64,000 nt of DNA, taken from contig JAJEBE010000006.1 of NCBI GenBank assembly GCA_022822545.1, positions 1 through 64,000 on the forward strand. The letters are read 5' to 3'. This stretch comes from Anaerolineae bacterium. GTDB taxonomy: Bacteria > Chloroflexota > Anaerolineae > Aggregatilineales > Phototrophicaceae. Shown here piece by piece: positions 48,123 through 57,936 of this stretch. The translations under genes were made by a program, and so were the position numbers. Within the stretch, counting starts at the first letter, position 1. Each line of letters opens with the position of its first letter. Below the pieces are notes generated by a model. The model did not search any database, had not been told where the DNA came from, and was given only the letters and a program-made list of their open reading frames with translations.

Positions 48123-49262
48123 ATGAGCATATCCGGCATAATCGAAGTCATCGAATTCGCTACCCTGATCGGACAGCGGCCACGGGCGGCGGGCAACAAC
48201 GCTCGCCTTGGCGCGCACGGCATTGAAGTGACGTTGCCGCTTTGCCGCCTGACCACCGCTGACGGCGCTAGCGGTTTCGGCGTGAGCCAAGCCAGCCGTG
48301 AGGACGCGGACAGGATCCTGGGCGTCGATATCGCCGATTTGCTGAGCGCGGAAAGCGGGGTCGCCGACCGCGCCCAAGCCTTCGATTTTCCGCTCTGGGA
48401 TTTGCTGGGGAAGCTGAGCGGCAAGCCGATCTACGAAATGGTCGCGCCGCCGGGGGCGACGCTCAGCCAGCCCATGCGCGCCCCCTGTTACGACACCTCG
48501 CTTTACATGAACGGCCTGCACCTGGAATCGCATGAAGCGGCGGCCGCGCTCATCGCCGGCTACGCGCGCGACGGTTACGAGAAGGGTCACCGCAGCTTCA
48601 AGATCAAGGTCGGGCGGGGCGCGCTCCACATGCCGCTGGAGGCGGGCATCAAGCGCGATATCGCCGTGATCAAGGCGGTACGGGAGGCGGCCGGCCCCGA
48701 AGCGCGCATCATGATCGACGCCAACAACGGCTTCAACTTCAATATCGCCCGGCGCGTCCTGGAAGAAACGGCCGACTGCGATGTTTTCTGGCTGGAGGAA
48801 GCCTTCCATGAGGACCCGCTGCTCTATGAGGCGCTGCGCCAGTGGCTGGATGCGGAAGGCATCAACACGCTGATCGCGGATGGCGAGGGCTGGGCGGCGG
48901 CCGCGCTGATGGACTGGGCGCGCGCTGGTTTTGTCGAGGTGGTTCAATACGACATCTTCAGCCACGGCTTCAGCAACTGGCTGCGAACGGGGGCGCAACT
49001 TGATGCCTGGGGCGCGCGCGCGGCGCCGCATCATTATGGCCGGCACCTCGGCAATTATGTCAGCGGGCACCTGGCGCCGGCGATACGCGGCTTCACTTTC
49101 GTCGAGTGGGACGAGACGACGACGGCGGGCATTGACGCTTCCGCCTATCGGGTCGAGGAGGGCCATGCGATCATCCCGAATCGGCCGGGTTTTGGGCTGA
49201 CGCTGGACGACGCGGTTTTCCGCGCGGCGGTGGCGGAGGGTGGCTGGGAGTTGTGCGTGTGA
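48123..49262 (+). CDS. Enolase-superfamily (mandelate racemase group) dehydratase
   Basis: A 379-residue enzyme. The Lys pair lies in FKIKVGRGA (about residues 160-168). Metal ligands are likely Asp in RIMIDANNGFN, Glu in FWLEEAFHED and Glu/Asp in LIADGEGW, and the base His lies in APHHYGRHLGNY. The capping domain is shortened and lacks the usual strand pair found in the 22540 gene, so the two belong to different subgroups. GAGGAGG lies just upstream of the ATG. It is probably co-transcribed with the epimerase gene as part of a sugar-acid pathway. Confidence 0.82.
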   Translation: MSISGIIEVIEFATLIGQRPRAAGNNARLGAHGIEVTLPLCRLTTADGASGFGVSQASREDADRILGVDIADLLSAESGVADRAQAFDFPLWDLLGKLSGKPIYEMVAPPGATLSQPMRAPCYDTSLYMNGLHLESHEAAAALIAGYARDGYEKGHRSFKIKVGRGALHMPLEAGIKRDIAVIKAVREAAGPEARIMIDANNGFNFNIARRVLEETADCDVFWLEEAFHEDPLLYEALRQWLDAEGINTLIADGEGWAAAALMDWARAGFVEVVQYDIFSHGFSNWLRTGAQLDAWGARAAPHHYGRHLGNYVSGHLAPAIRGFTFVEWDETTTAGIDASAYRVEEGHAIIPNRPGFGLTLDDAVFRAAVAEGGWELCV

Positions 49263-49355
49263 CGTGACGGGTCACCCGTTGTTGTCAGCCAGCATCCTTA
49301 CCAACCATTCTCCCTGGATGTGATCACCGAGTAAATGACTTTACCCGAACCAGAC

Positions 49356-49383
49356 TTGTCTATGGGCAATCTTATGATATATT
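49356..49383 (+). promoter_or_regulatory. Promoter of the reverse transcriptase gene
   Basis: TTGTCT (49356-49361), 16-base spacer, TATATT (49378-49383), in a locally AT-rich stretch. A GTCACCCGTTGT inverted-repeat fragment near 49265-49285 could end the preceding operon. Confidence 0.5.
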
Positions 49384-49426
49384 ACGTCATCTTATTTATC
49401 TCTTCGCGTTGAGGTGCCTGATAGCA

Positions 49427-52246
49427 ATGAATCGACAGTATCAGTTTCCAAACTATATGCAGAGGGTGTTTGAACAAGCCCTTGAATGGCTTGATGGCAT
49501 GGAAGATACAGCCGGGTATCGCTTTGGCAACGTGAATCTAGACTATACAGAGATACATGAGGTTGGAACGCACTTTAACAGATATTTTCCAACACATTAT
49601 TTCAAGGTAGTATCTGCCTTTCAAGAAATTATATCCTACGACCTAGTAAGGACCTGGGTTCAGAATAATGGATGTATTTGCCTCGTAGACGTGGGTTGCG
49701 GCTCCGGCGCAGCAACGTGCGCGTTTGTTGAGGTGGTATCTTCAGTATTCGCCAAACTTGACACTAATACTCCGTTGCGCTTGCATGTAATTGGAGTAGA
49801 TCCAACTAGAGCGGCAATCGTAACATATAGAGGCGTTCTAGACCGAATCAACAAAAGCGGCGCATTACCGTTTGGACTCACTATTACTCACGAGTTTCTC
49901 CCCGGTAAGTTACCTGACCACACCAACAAATTATTGCGCATGTTGATCAATCGCCGAACGATTTGGGATCAACCAAGTATTCCACATACGATTCTACTTC
50001 AAGTCAATACCGTTCGAAACTTTCATGAACAGGGAGCAATTCATGATGTTGCCAAGGCGCATGCGCAGGTTTTTGCAGACACGTCTTTGGACCATATCCA
50101 CATTTTGACCATTGCCACAGAAGGATTCGAACAACAAGTCAAGGAAATGAATCGACACCTCCAGTCACAGTTTTCATCTCATCAATCTCTGAAAAACACA
50201 TTTCAAAGCATATCTTATAGATATCGGAATCCGGACAAAAGTTATTTCAGAAAACAGGGATACCCTGAATATAGAAGCTGTTATCATGCCGCATTTTCTT
50301 CTATCAAGAATGCGTCCTGGCAAATGGACGGCACCTGGCAGAGGATCATCCGTCGTGAAAACATCAAGCGAGCTTGGGCGCGTGCTAGAACAGCACTATT
50401 GCGCGAGTCGTTGATTGATGAGGCCGAAATAAGACTTCGTGACCACAATGTGGATCGATTCATCGATCAATTGCAGGCTCGATTGATCGCTTACGCTGAG
50501 GATATATTTCATCCCAAAGATCAGATTTACTATGATTTTCCCAAGAATGCGGAATCCTTCAGACCAAAGAGTCTAACCAGATTCGAGGAAGAGATTCTAT
50601 CGGTTGCTATAATTCAGGTCGCAGGAGACGAATACGGCACACATAGAAACCTTTACGCCTACCGTTTGAATCAGACAGATCACCATGAATCTGAGTATTT
50701 GTATAGTTATTATGGTAATGCCTACAAAGAATGGATGTTTGACGCCTTCGAGGTCGCCCAGTCAACACCTGATGGAGTTGTGTTGGAAACTGACCTGGCC
50801 TCATTCTATACTTGTATCTCTCAGGAACGACTCGCCGATACTCTACTGCTCGAAATGCGCGCAGAAAGTAGCCGAGTTACTTGGCTATTGAATAAAATTC
50901 TCGGAAAGCATTTGGACGATCATCGAAAGAATTTCGGGCTAGCTCAAGGCGGTGTCGGCTCCGGATACTATGCTAACGTATATCTTGCACCAGTCGACGA
51001 TTACTTCATTTCAACAAACTCTTTAGGTGTAGACTACTTCAGATACGCCGATGACATGCTCATTGTAGTTCCAAATGATGTAGCGGTTGACGACGTAATT
51101 AGAGAACTCGACAATCAGCTTGAATCTCTCGGACTGAAACGCAACGAATCCAAAACCACTAATACTTCCACAGGATTGTTTCAGGCTACAAAGTTCTCTC
51201 CCGCACTTGAGCAATTGGGCCTAAAGCTCAACAGAGCTTTGAAAGAGCTTTGGCTAGCCGCCTGCGATTACCACGGTCAATTGGATATAGGCTCAGGAAC
51301 ATTCTATGAATTCTTGCATGAATATCAGCGCCGACTCCGAAGTATTGGCATTACCGTTTCTGTCCCAATGCTTCGTCGCAAAGTTCGAAAATATCAAGCG
51401 CTGTCAACAGGCAACGCGAATATCGCGTTACCAGACTTCGGCGATCAGCTGGGCGACGTTCAATGGGCTAGGCAATTCCAGGCCATGAATCCGATTTGGA
51501 TGGAGGATATAACGTCATTACGTGAACAATTTGAATTCAATGTCATTACCATATTGGAATCTGCCAAGGGCAATTACAAGCTTATTGATCGTAACACTGG
51601 GTCCGCTCTGAGGTTTTGTACTAGCCGATTGTGTCGACTAGGTTTGAGCGCTAGGTCCGCACAGTTGCTGGAAGACCTCCTGATGGTGGCACCGTATCAA
51701 CTTCGTGCAACTTCATTTCTCTTGGAAAGTCTTAGTACACAGGGCCATATCAGAATCATTGAGAACCTTTATGAATTCTACACTGAACAGTCTGATCGCG
51801 ATGAAACGTACTTGCGAGCAATGTTGCTCCGCGCAATGAGATATTTTGAAGATACACCATTGGACCTGCTTTTCTCGGTCGTGGTAGATTCGCAAGAGTC
51901 AATTGAAGCTAGGTTGATGGCGTCTGAATCACTGCTAGCAGCAAACGTCAGTGAAATCGGCTACGAACATTGGGCCAATCTTAACAACACGCTGTCAAAT
52001 GAATCACTTATACCTCGACTCAGGAAAAACCTTATACTGATCTTGCGGCAAGTTCGCGATCGCGACCCACAAACATTTGCTCCGCAACAAGGTGATGACC
52101 CCATGCTATTTGACGCCTTTGACATTGATGAAGGCCTCAACATATTTGAGCAAGCAGAACCGCCTATACTTATGAACTACTACGACCTTACAGACCCCGA
52201 TGATGCCTATGACTATGGCGAGCTAATGACGACCATTAGCCATTAG
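49427..52246 (+). CDS. Reverse transcriptase with an N-terminal methyltransferase-like domain
   Basis: A 939-residue single-gene fusion. Residues about 50-240 look like a class I SAM-dependent methyltransferase: motif I VDVGCGSGA (87-95) and an acidic IGVDPTRAA after the second strand (122-130). Residues about 385-580 form a reverse transcriptase core: ETDLASFYTCI (454-464, motif A Asp), QGGVGSG (507-513, motif B), YADD (540-543, motif C) and GLKRNESK (569-576, motif D). The remaining 350 residues are mostly helical, repeat-like and end in an acidic tail. Codon use is clearly AT-richer than neighbours, which suggests transfer. The ATG at 49427 has GAGGTG 10 bases upstream. No intron-type maturase/HNH domain is seen. 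The layout recalls Abi/UG-type defence reverse transcriptases. Confidence 0.8.
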   Translation: MNRQYQFPNYMQRVFEQALEWLDGMEDTAGYRFGNVNLDYTEIHEVGTHFNRYFPTHYFKVVSAFQEIISYDLVRTWVQNNGCICLVDVGCGSGAATCAFVEVVSSVFAKLDTNTPLRLHVIGVDPTRAAIVTYRGVLDRINKSGALPFGLTITHEFLPGKLPDHTNKLLRMLINRRTIWDQPSIPHTILLQVNTVRNFHEQGAIHDVAKAHAQVFADTSLDHIHILTIATEGFEQQVKEMNRHLQSQFSSHQSLKNTFQSISYRYRNPDKSYFRKQGYPEYRSCYHAAFSSIKNASWQMDGTWQRIIRRENIKRAWARARTALLRESLIDEAEIRLRDHNVDRFIDQLQARLIAYAEDIFHPKDQIYYDFPKNAESFRPKSLTRFEEEILSVAIIQVAGDEYGTHRNLYAYRLNQTDHHESEYLYSYYGNAYKEWMFDAFEVAQSTPDGVVLETDLASFYTCISQERLADTLLLEMRAESSRVTWLLNKILGKHLDDHRKNFGLAQGGVGSGYYANVYLAPVDDYFISTNSLGVDYFRYADDMLIVVPNDVAVDDVIRELDNQLESLGLKRNESKTTNTSTGLFQATKFSPALEQLGLKLNRALKELWLAACDYHGQLDIGSGTFYEFLHEYQRRLRSIGITVSVPMLRRKVRKYQALSTGNANIALPDFGDQLGDVQWARQFQAMNPIWMEDITSLREQFEFNVITILESAKGNYKLIDRNTGSALRFCTSRLCRLGLSARSAQLLEDLLMVAPYQLRATSFLLESLSTQGHIRIIENLYEFYTEQSDRDETYLRAMLLRAMRYFEDTPLDLLFSVVVDSQESIEARLMASESLLAANVSEIGYEHWANLNNTLSNESLIPRLRKNLILILRQVRDRDPQTFAPQQGDDPMLFDAFDIDEGLNIFEQAEPPILMNYYDLTDPDDAYDYGELMTTISH

Positions 52247-52261
52247 TCACGAGACTCGCAC

Positions 52262-53758
52262 TCAATACTTTCTGTCCCTAAACTCCAACACCCCATCCTC
52301 CAGCGCGCCGAAGCGCATCACCAGCAGATCCTTCAAGTAGTTCTGATAGACCTTCCAGGGGCGGCGCAGCCCCTGCTTGGGCAGTGAAGCCAGGGCACGC
52401 CGCACGTAACCCGAGCTGAAATCGATATAGGCTTCCGTCTCGACCGACTCGTCCAAGCGCGGCCGGCACTGATCGTAGCCGCGGCGCTCCATGTGCCTCA
52501 GCAGGCGGCAGACATATTCGCAGATCAATTCGGCTTTCAGCGTCCAGGAAGCGTTGGTGTAGCCGAAAGCCGATACCAGATTGGGGATGCCGCTGTACAT
52601 CATGCCTTTGTAGCTCAGGGTATCGCCCAGGTCGACCGGAGCGCCGTCAACGATGATGTCCACGCCGTGCATGATTTTCATCACCAGGCCGGTGGCGGTC
52701 ACGATGATATCGGCCGGCAGCAACTCGCCTGATTCCAGGCGGACGCCCGCCTCGACGAGGCGGTCGATGCGCGCGGTGACAACCGACACTTTGCCGGTCT
52801 TGATCGCTTGGAACAGGTCGCTATCGGGCACGAGGCAGACGCGCTGATCCCAGGGCTTGTAGCGGGGACCGAAATGCCGCTCGACATCGTAATCGGGACC
52901 GAGAGCCTGGCGAATGCCTTGCAGGATGTTGGCGCGGGTCTCCTGCGGTTTCGCGCGGGCGATGTGGAAATAGAACATCTGGCGGGTGATCGAGAGCCAG
53001 CGAGTCAGCCAGGCCGCCAGCTTGAAGGGCAGGCGCCCCCGCAAGCGCAGCGCCGCCGCGTCTTTTGAGGGGGCGCTGACGACATAGCTGGGCGAACGTT
53101 GCAGCATGGTGACATGCCCGGCGCGCTGTGCCAAAACCGGCGCCATTGTGACGGCGGTAGCGCCGCTGCCGATCAAGACGACGCGCTTGCCGGCGTACTC
53201 CAGATTTTCGCGCCAGTTTTGCGGATGCAGGATCTCGCCGGCGAAATCTTCCATGCCGAGCCAGTCGGGCGTATAACCGCGGTCGTAGCGATAGTAGCCG
53301 GTGCACATGAAAAGGAACTTGCAGCGCATCTTCAAGTCCTCGCCGGATTCGCCCGGCTTGATGGTCACATGCCATTCCGCCTCCGCCGACGACCAAGCGA
53401 CTTGCGTGACGCGTTGGTTGAAACGGATCAGCCGGTCGATGCCGAATTCGCGCGCTGTGTCCTTGAGGTATTGCAGGATGGCGGGGCCATCGGCGATGGC
53501 CTCCTCGCCGGTCCAGGGGCGGAAGCGATAACCGAGGGTGTACATGTCCGAATCGGAGCGGACGCCGGGGTAAGTGAAGAGGTCCCAGGTGCCGCCGATG
53601 CTGTCCCGCCCTTCGACGATAGCGAAGGTCGTATTGGGGCAGCGCGCGCCCAGATAATAAGCGGCCGCGATGCCGGAAAGTCCGGCGCCGACGATCAAGA
53701 CATCGACGGATTCGGTCATCAGTGGGCGCCAATCCTCGCGCTCATTTGCCTTCATCAT
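52262..53758 (-). CDS. Flavin-containing monooxygenase, Baeyer-Villiger type
   Basis: A 498-residue FAD/NADPH enzyme that inserts oxygen next to a ketone or into a soft nucleophile. FAD loop GAGLSG (about residue 24), GGTWDLFTYPGVRSDSD, the Baeyer-Villiger fingerprint FAGEILHPQNW, the NADPH loop GSGATA and a C-terminal ATGL (TATGLVMKIM) are all present, as in EthA-like enzymes. Start at ATG 53758; a second ATG lies 3 bases on. It converges with the reverse transcriptase gene and is divergent from the sulfatase gene. Substrate unknown; a ketone from terpenoid or steroid breakdown is possible. Confidence 0.88.
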   Translation of the reverse strand: MMKANEREDWRPLMTESVDVLIVGAGLSGIAAAYYLGARCPNTTFAIVEGRDSIGGTWDLFTYPGVRSDSDMYTLGYRFRPWTGEEAIADGPAILQYLKDTAREFGIDRLIRFNQRVTQVAWSSAEAEWHVTIKPGESGEDLKMRCKFLFMCTGYYRYDRGYTPDWLGMEDFAGEILHPQNWRENLEYAGKRVVLIGSGATAVTMAPVLAQRAGHVTMLQRSPSYVVSAPSKDAAALRLRGRLPFKLAAWLTRWLSITRQMFYFHIARAKPQETRANILQGIRQALGPDYDVERHFGPRYKPWDQRVCLVPDSDLFQAIKTGKVSVVTARIDRLVEAGVRLESGELLPADIIVTATGLVMKIMHGVDIIVDGAPVDLGDTLSYKGMMYSGIPNLVSAFGYTNASWTLKAELICEYVCRLLRHMERRGYDQCRPRLDESVETEAYIDFSSGYVRRALASLPKQGLRRPWKVYQNYLKDLLVMRFGALEDGVLEFRDRKY

Positions 53759-57405: not shown

Positions 57406-57936
57406 TTGATACACTTTTACCACCGAGGACACAGAGTTAAGTGAGGGCACAGAGAAAAGCTTATCTACTGTATCGCCGTATACCGGACTTAAGCCGCGTG
57501 ACGTTGAAGTTATTCAAGAGCCCTCTCTTGATTCCAGATGCCCGCAGGTAGGCAATCGTCTGCGCCTCGTGCACAGACGATAATTCGCTTACTGACTTTA
57601 GTTCGACAAGTACTTGGTTCTCGACTACCAAGTCGGCGACCATTTCGCCTACATCTATCCCTTCATAATTGACGCGAAAGCGTTTCTGTCGCCGGTAGCA
57701 AATATCGCGCCGGTCGAATTCAAGGCATAGAGCGTTCTCGTAAATACTCTCGAACAGGCCAGGTCCCAACACACTGTGAACTGTCATCGCCGCACCAATA
57801 ATACGGTATGTCAAGCCATCTTGTCTGAACGTGCTCGTGGAGAGCTTGCCGCCAGCGCGCAATTCTCTATTTTCCATGAAGAAGTCCTCGGTGTGCTCGT
57901 TCAAACTCTGTGTCCTCGGTGGTAAAAGCGTATCAA
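57406..57936. mobile_element. 531-bp inverted-repeat cassette carrying a GxxExxY gene
   Basis: The ends 57406-57438 and 57904-57936 are 33-bp inverted repeats with a single mismatch, made of TTGATAC plus the TTTTACCACCGAGGACAC repeat. Inside is one gene (57461-57877), whose ribosome binding site lies in the right-hand repeat arm. The right end is 7 bases from the stop of the upstream exporter gene. I see no clear target duplication and no transposase. Confidence 0.75.
57461..57877 (-). CDS. GxxExxY family protein
   Basis: A 138-residue soluble protein with the family motif GPGLFESIYENAL (about residues 38-50) and PD-(D/E)xK-like features later: DVGEMVADLVVENQVLVELKSV contains an Asp and a Glu-x-Lys pair at nuclease-like spacing. 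GxxExxY proteins are widespread and patchy and have no settled function; a nuclease-like fold is suspected. The ATG at 57877 has GAGGA 7 bases upstream, and that GAGGA belongs to the flanking repeat. A TTG 27 bases further up would add residues encoded by the repeat itself. It interrupts the exporter operon and has no evident tie to it. Confidence 0.85.
   Translation of the reverse strand: MENRELRAGGKLSTSTFRQDGLTYRIIGAAMTVHSVLGPGLFESIYENALCLEFDRRDICYRRQKRFRVNYEGIDVGEMVADLVVENQVLVELKSVSELSSVHEAQTIAYLRASGIKRGLLNNFNVTRLKSGIRRYSR

Follow-up and report, generated by a model that had tools for sequence, protein, structure and literature searches.

A METTL17/Rsm22-like methyltransferase fold in a UG35-group reverse transcriptase, encoded by a one-gene insertion in an Anaerolineae genome

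Background

DRTs make DNA by strikingly different mechanisms, and the UG groups that concern us here were reportedly defined by Mestre et al. in 2022.

Among the systems closest to the protein described below, the class 1 UG/Abi enzymes are fusions of a reverse transcriptase (RT) with an alphaRep domain and carry out untemplated synthesis (PMC13174585), and DRT4, which consists of a single gene, produces random single-stranded DNA (PMC13213688). During mitoribosome assembly the mRNA channel of the precursor is blocked by METTL17, which also holds h31; the yeast homologue of METTL17, Rsm22, has lost SAM binding (PMC9892005). No specific methylation target of METTL17 is known (PMC11785013). A cysteine cluster has been described for Rsm22 (PMC8171064).

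No experimental study of UG35 was found in the literature searched, the 2022 UG/Abi survey lying outside its scope. A literature search pairing UG35 with reverse transcriptases gave no match, and the main text of the DRT papers examined mentions neither UG35 nor a methyltransferase.

The present analysis concerns one gene in a stretch of 64,000 nucleotides (positions 1 to 64,000 of contig JAJEBE010000006.1, assembly GCA_022822545.1, from an Anaerolineae bacterium), which is called the window throughout. The RT group of its product has already been catalogued; what is added here is the assignment of the front domain to a METTL17/Rsm22-like fold and the one-gene insertion.

Family membership and distribution

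The gene occupies positions 49427..52246 on the forward strand and encodes 939 amino acids; a TTG lies in frame upstream of it, at 49409. The best family match of the product was PADLOC RT_UG35 (E 3.1e-226), with residues 205-930 aligned to positions 219-936 of the 938 profile positions, and profile positions 3-192 matched the front domain separately (E 5.8e-36). This full-length profile match makes it virtually certain that the protein is a defence-type reverse transcriptase of the UG35 group. An earlier note on this DNA had considered an undescribed defence RT, a view that finds no support in that form because the protein belongs to a catalogued candidate defence group, RT_UG35, whose front domain is family-wide where examined. 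The note's description of the chain itself stood up well. The 939-residue frame is single and intact, as homologues align end to end, and it joins a methyltransferase-like domain (VDVGCGSGA at residues 87-95), apparent from its AF2 fold and its invariant motifs I and II, to an RT core with the motif A aspartate (456), QGGVGSG (507-513) and YADD (540-543), followed by a long C-terminus that is all-helical in the AF2 model. In detail, one chain contains three modules, namely the methyltransferase fold (1-296), the RT (about 300-590) and the helical C-terminus (about 592-930).

Full-length homologues are 43-46% identical in the case of close relatives and 25-32% in the case of distant ones. In searches of the family, the class and then of genome contigs, the relatives matching over the full length came from Chloroflexota and Cyanobacteria, and one that matches in part came from an Acidobacteria record. 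The front domain was present in every relative covering that region, mainly from Chloroflexota and Cyanobacteria. A 400-genome sample of the phylum, searched at E 1e-20, contained the window's own copy only, which shows UG35 to be rare and patchily distributed. Close relatives were also sought in viral contigs, phages and plasmids, where the search yielded only distant generic RTs or nothing. Neither UG25 nor Rsm22 genes were found in samples of the window's class, where the controls likewise gave no match.

Some loci deserve a separate remark. Genome G475 contains two UG35 genes from different clades (L087 and L099), and the upstream neighbourhood of L099 is shared with L104, from another species. 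A split UG35 system in Leptolyngbya sp. PCC 6406 (L107:8515-9972) was considered and rejected, as an opposite-strand transposase-like ORF interrupts the gene. The gap in the UG35 gene of L092 is a run of N.

The front domain

The window protein remained below the cut-off of the Pfam methyltransferase families (20.4 of 30), and since the N-terminal domain missed every Pfam cut-off, structure was needed. Of the two checks proposed for this region in the earlier note, the comparison with methyltransferase families therefore failed at the profile level and succeeded at the level of the fold, and structure prediction gave a methyltransferase fold: the AF2 model of the first 305 residues alone had a pLDDT of 90.5 and a pTM of 0.90, and residues 83-294 have their strands in the class I methyltransferase order. 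The fold extends over residues 1-296 (49427..50314, forward strand) and contains the SAM motif I, D88-V-G-C-G-S-G94 (49688..49708), and motif II, G123-V-D125 (49793..49801), which we take to bind the ribose of SAM. A Rossmann methyltransferase fold, a motif I rich in glycine and a motif II of acidic character give the domain the build of a class I SAM methyltransferase. At the end of strand 4, the usual place of the catalytic motif, lies Q192-V-N194 (50000..50008), which is not NPPY-like and to which a catalytic role may be ascribed by its place. D88, G90, C91, G92, G123, D125, Q192 and N194 are invariant across 25 family members; because of these eight residues and the class I fold, the SAM motif is no chance match.

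Within the class I enzymes, the nearest structures are those of METTL17/Rsm22. Foldseek placed METTL17 (8csp_7, E 7e-9) first, and when its matches were re-ranked by VIA-align, rows 1-11 were all METTL17/Rsm22 from trypanosome, human and yeast (Z 18.1-22.7), which places the domain in this fold group, with unrelated methyltransferases starting at Z 14.9 and then falling lower. At the sequence level, Pfam PF09243 (Rsm22) was absent from the matches of the 25 members at E 0.1, and profile-profile comparison with bacterial Rsm22 was weak (P 0.0018, probability 15%; P 0.027 against UbiE), the FPTHYFK segment lying opposite the PATF segment of Rsm22, and motif I opposite motif I. The Cys/His cluster of Rsm22 (APCHxxCP, Zn/Fe-S) was looked for in the 25 members and no CxxC-type motif was found, C91 being the sole conserved cysteine. 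Owing to the lack of the cluster and of a Pfam Rsm22 match and to the weak profile match, ribosome binding is to be read as a structural analogy only. At the same time, as the yeast homologue does without SAM binding and METTL17 has no known specific methylation target, the fold predicts contact with RNA or the ribosome at least as well as it predicts methylation, and the front domain may make such a contact.

What the domain does can be pictured in several ways. SAM binding is suggested by the conserved pocket, and methyl transfer is a possibility raised by the modelled fold and the conserved motifs. An active methyltransferase might modify the nucleic-acid product of the RT or its RNA partner, either as a self mark or as protection from nucleases. 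The invariance of motif I, motif II and the Q-x-N pair and the fusion in all relatives covering the region speak for this, but the strand-4 Q-x-N is not the (D/N/S)PP(Y/W) of amino-methylating DNA enzymes, and the fold group includes a member without SAM binding, yeast Rsm22, and lacks a firm target (PMC9892005, PMC11785013), so that we regard this activity as rather unlikely. Alternatively, SAM or a related ligand could be bound as a signal only, the RT being gated in response to a phage-induced disturbance of the SAM pool or of cellular methylation. Such gating would account for SAM-binding residues that are invariant and yet not accompanied by a classical catalytic motif; many methyltransferases, however, lack a simple catalytic motif, and we rate it as unlikely. 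Finally, Rsm22-type folds without catalysis do exist, as in yeast Rsm22 (PMC9892005), and the domain could be a degenerate scaffold serving folding or oligomerisation only, but a dead pocket would not be expected to keep its SAM-pocket residues unchanged across proteins only 25-30% identical, which makes a mere scaffold decidedly unlikely.

The reverse transcriptase core and C-terminus

The fingers and palm of the RT comprise residues 300-590 (50324..51196, forward strand), which matched Pfam RVT_1 with 47 bits (cut-off 29.6) and known RTs with Z 17-25 in VIA-align. The YADD catalytic box, residues 540-543, is located at 51044..51055. All nine full-length rows of one alignment (A1) share its aspartates D542 and D543, and in a second (A2) the YxDD aspartates are kept in all rows reaching the site except the truncated L105. 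The helical C-terminal domain, residues 592-930 (51200..52216), is HEAT/alphaRep-like, with an all-helical AF2 model and matches to AbiA, DRT6, DRT4 and UG15. The full-length AF2 model, built from a 27-row alignment, reached a pLDDT of 87.5 and a pTM of 0.89. VIA-align gave Z 18.5 to AbiA (8oz7) over residues 301-898 with 405 residues aligned, and the Foldseek matches to DRT6, DRT4 and UG15 covered 568-602 columns with a TM to target of 0.49-0.58. By model and structure matches the protein thus has the build of class 1 UG/Abi enzymes, in which the RT carries an alphaRep/HEAT-like domain as a C-terminal fusion.

When the RT core alone is compared by VIA-align, its likeness to G2L4 and group II RTs equals that to class 1 RTs. 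This good alignment with group II/G2L4 and also with DGR RTs (Z 20-25) is what favours an RT of the group II intron, retron or DGR type with an unrecognised RNA. Against such an enzyme stand the NCBIfam scores, which for group II maturase (66.5 of 300 bits) and retron St85 (43.8 of 235) are far below cut-off, as they are for the DRT equivalogs; furthermore, the helical domain is of the class 1 type. An Rfam search gave no match of note at the locus and no intron RNA, and some retron RNAs lie outside Rfam. In agreement with the earlier note, features of group II introns are therefore lacking. The 164-base leader (49263..49426, forward strand) contained no conserved or unusually stable RNA (folding z = -0.94), and the only similarity among leaders and trailers of relatives came from flanking genes or from close relatives, so that the conserved nearby non-coding RNA for which the note had proposed a survey was not found in either. 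With a leader that is unremarkable and not conserved, an intron, retron or DGR origin appears highly improbable.

Insertion site and genomic neighbourhood

The gene is flanked on the left by an enolase-superfamily gene (48123..49262, forward strand) and on the right by a convergent flavin monooxygenase-like gene (52262..53758, reverse strand), both named by reading of their products; in relatives without the RT these two genes adjoin each other. For a comparison of the insertion site, 25 genomes of the genus with both convergent flanking genes on one contig were used. The gap between the last matched codons of the flanking genes was 2-421 bases in 22 of the 25, and about 3.0 kb in the other three (G000, G475 and G491), where it is occupied by the UG35 gene only. 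In the nearest relative (G477), whose flanking proteins are 85% and 90% identical, the gap is 4 bases and the genes meet almost directly. The UG35 gene is thus a one-gene insertion between two convergent flanking genes. No obvious terminal repeats were seen by eye at the junctions. In the tree of the flanking genes the three carriers stand apart, each beside a non-carrier, while they stand together in the RT tree; this fits repeated exchange at the site, the alternative being ancestral presence and many losses.

The empty site in the closest relative supports the recent transfer that had been proposed from the DNA alone. The lower GC and the isolation of the gene, cited at the time, were confirmed as well, with a GC of 44-45% within the gene against 57-65% in the adjoining kilobases, and with a metabolic neighbourhood devoid of related genes. 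Its supposed own promoter is a weak case, as the best leader match was 9/12 and 9 such sites were found in the region against 5.5 +/- 2.6 expected. The metabolic surroundings could point to a housekeeping rather than an antiphage role for this UG35 enzyme, but a gene that is missing from most members of the genus and sits between unrelated genes is very unlikely to serve such a role.

The window locus does not lie in a defence island. The survey of homologues proposed in the note revealed several defence-type genes near relatives. Among 75 neighbours of relatives, for which no background comparison exists, two genes matched RTasDUF1848, and other defence-type families were PD-T4-6, mad3, mad6, AbiLi and type II methyltransferases. 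Co-clustering opposite-strand genes upstream of UG35 at L098:8772-9755 and L109:8745-9728 are probably the two RTasDUF1848/DUF1848 matches. A small ORF of the window (57461-57904, reverse strand), which lies between two ABC-transporter genes and resembles the GxxExxY family, has a relative near UG35 in L086.

In 10 of 14 cyanobacterial UG35 loci, the directly upstream gene belongs to one cluster and encodes about 818 residues where complete. The member scanned, L101:7479-9932, is a UvrD-like helicase that matched PADLOC RTasHel (E 0) and contains in addition a DEDDh exonuclease domain (residues 465-619); the L101 protein has 818 residues, compared with 675 positions of the RTasHel profile. In L101 and nine other cyanobacterial loci the gene overlaps or abuts the UG35 start. 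A dedicated helicase elsewhere in the window genome was considered and rejected, as the matches were of a generic UvrD/PcrA type that also occurred in unrelated control genomes.

Discussion

The patchy one-gene insertion and some defence genes near relatives agree with a defence role, which the family assignment also suggests for the UG35 protein. By analogy with the single-gene class 1 enzymes AbiK and DRT4, the RT would make DNA without a non-coding RNA template. The front domain may bind SAM together with structured RNA, perhaps the small ribosomal subunit, as METTL17 does. Upon infection it could then act as a sensor that releases or triggers DNA synthesis, or as an effector that attacks translation, and the end result would be abortive infection. 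Taken as a whole, this mechanism, a single-gene, DNA-synthesising defence RT independent of non-coding RNA, with a SAM/RNA-binding front domain as sensor or effector, is a possible but tentative one. A bolder version, in which the METTL17/Rsm22-like module docks on or methylates the bacterial small ribosomal subunit and thereby couples the state of translation to template-free DNA synthesis or to translation shut-off, seems quite unlikely.

The pairing of an RT with a methyltransferase-like domain would link DNA synthesis in defence to SAM or to ribosome biology. Should the SAM pocket or a ribosome contact be needed for defence, an antiviral RT would have a new input or output. The window gene, a stand-alone ORF for which neither a helicase nor a non-coding RNA was found, offers a simple test construct.

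Compared with known systems, the second-best PADLOC match, RT_UG25 (E 3.5e-53), scored much more weakly than RT_UG35; since it spans residues 42-735, UG25 probably has part of the front domain in common. Within UG35, the window gene and its closest Chloroflexota relatives stand alone, whereas most cyanobacterial loci have the adjoining helicase. METTL17/Rsm22 resembles the front domain in its methyltransferase fold over residues 1-296, well ahead of other methyltransferases, but the UG35 domain is fused to an RT and has neither the Zn/Fe-S cysteine cluster nor a family match at the sequence level. The class 1 RTs AbiK, AbiA, DRT4, DRT6 and UG15 likewise carry a helical HEAT/alphaRep-like domain behind the RT, and to this layout UG35 adds a methyltransferase-like domain of 300 residues in front of the aligned region, which begins at residue 301.
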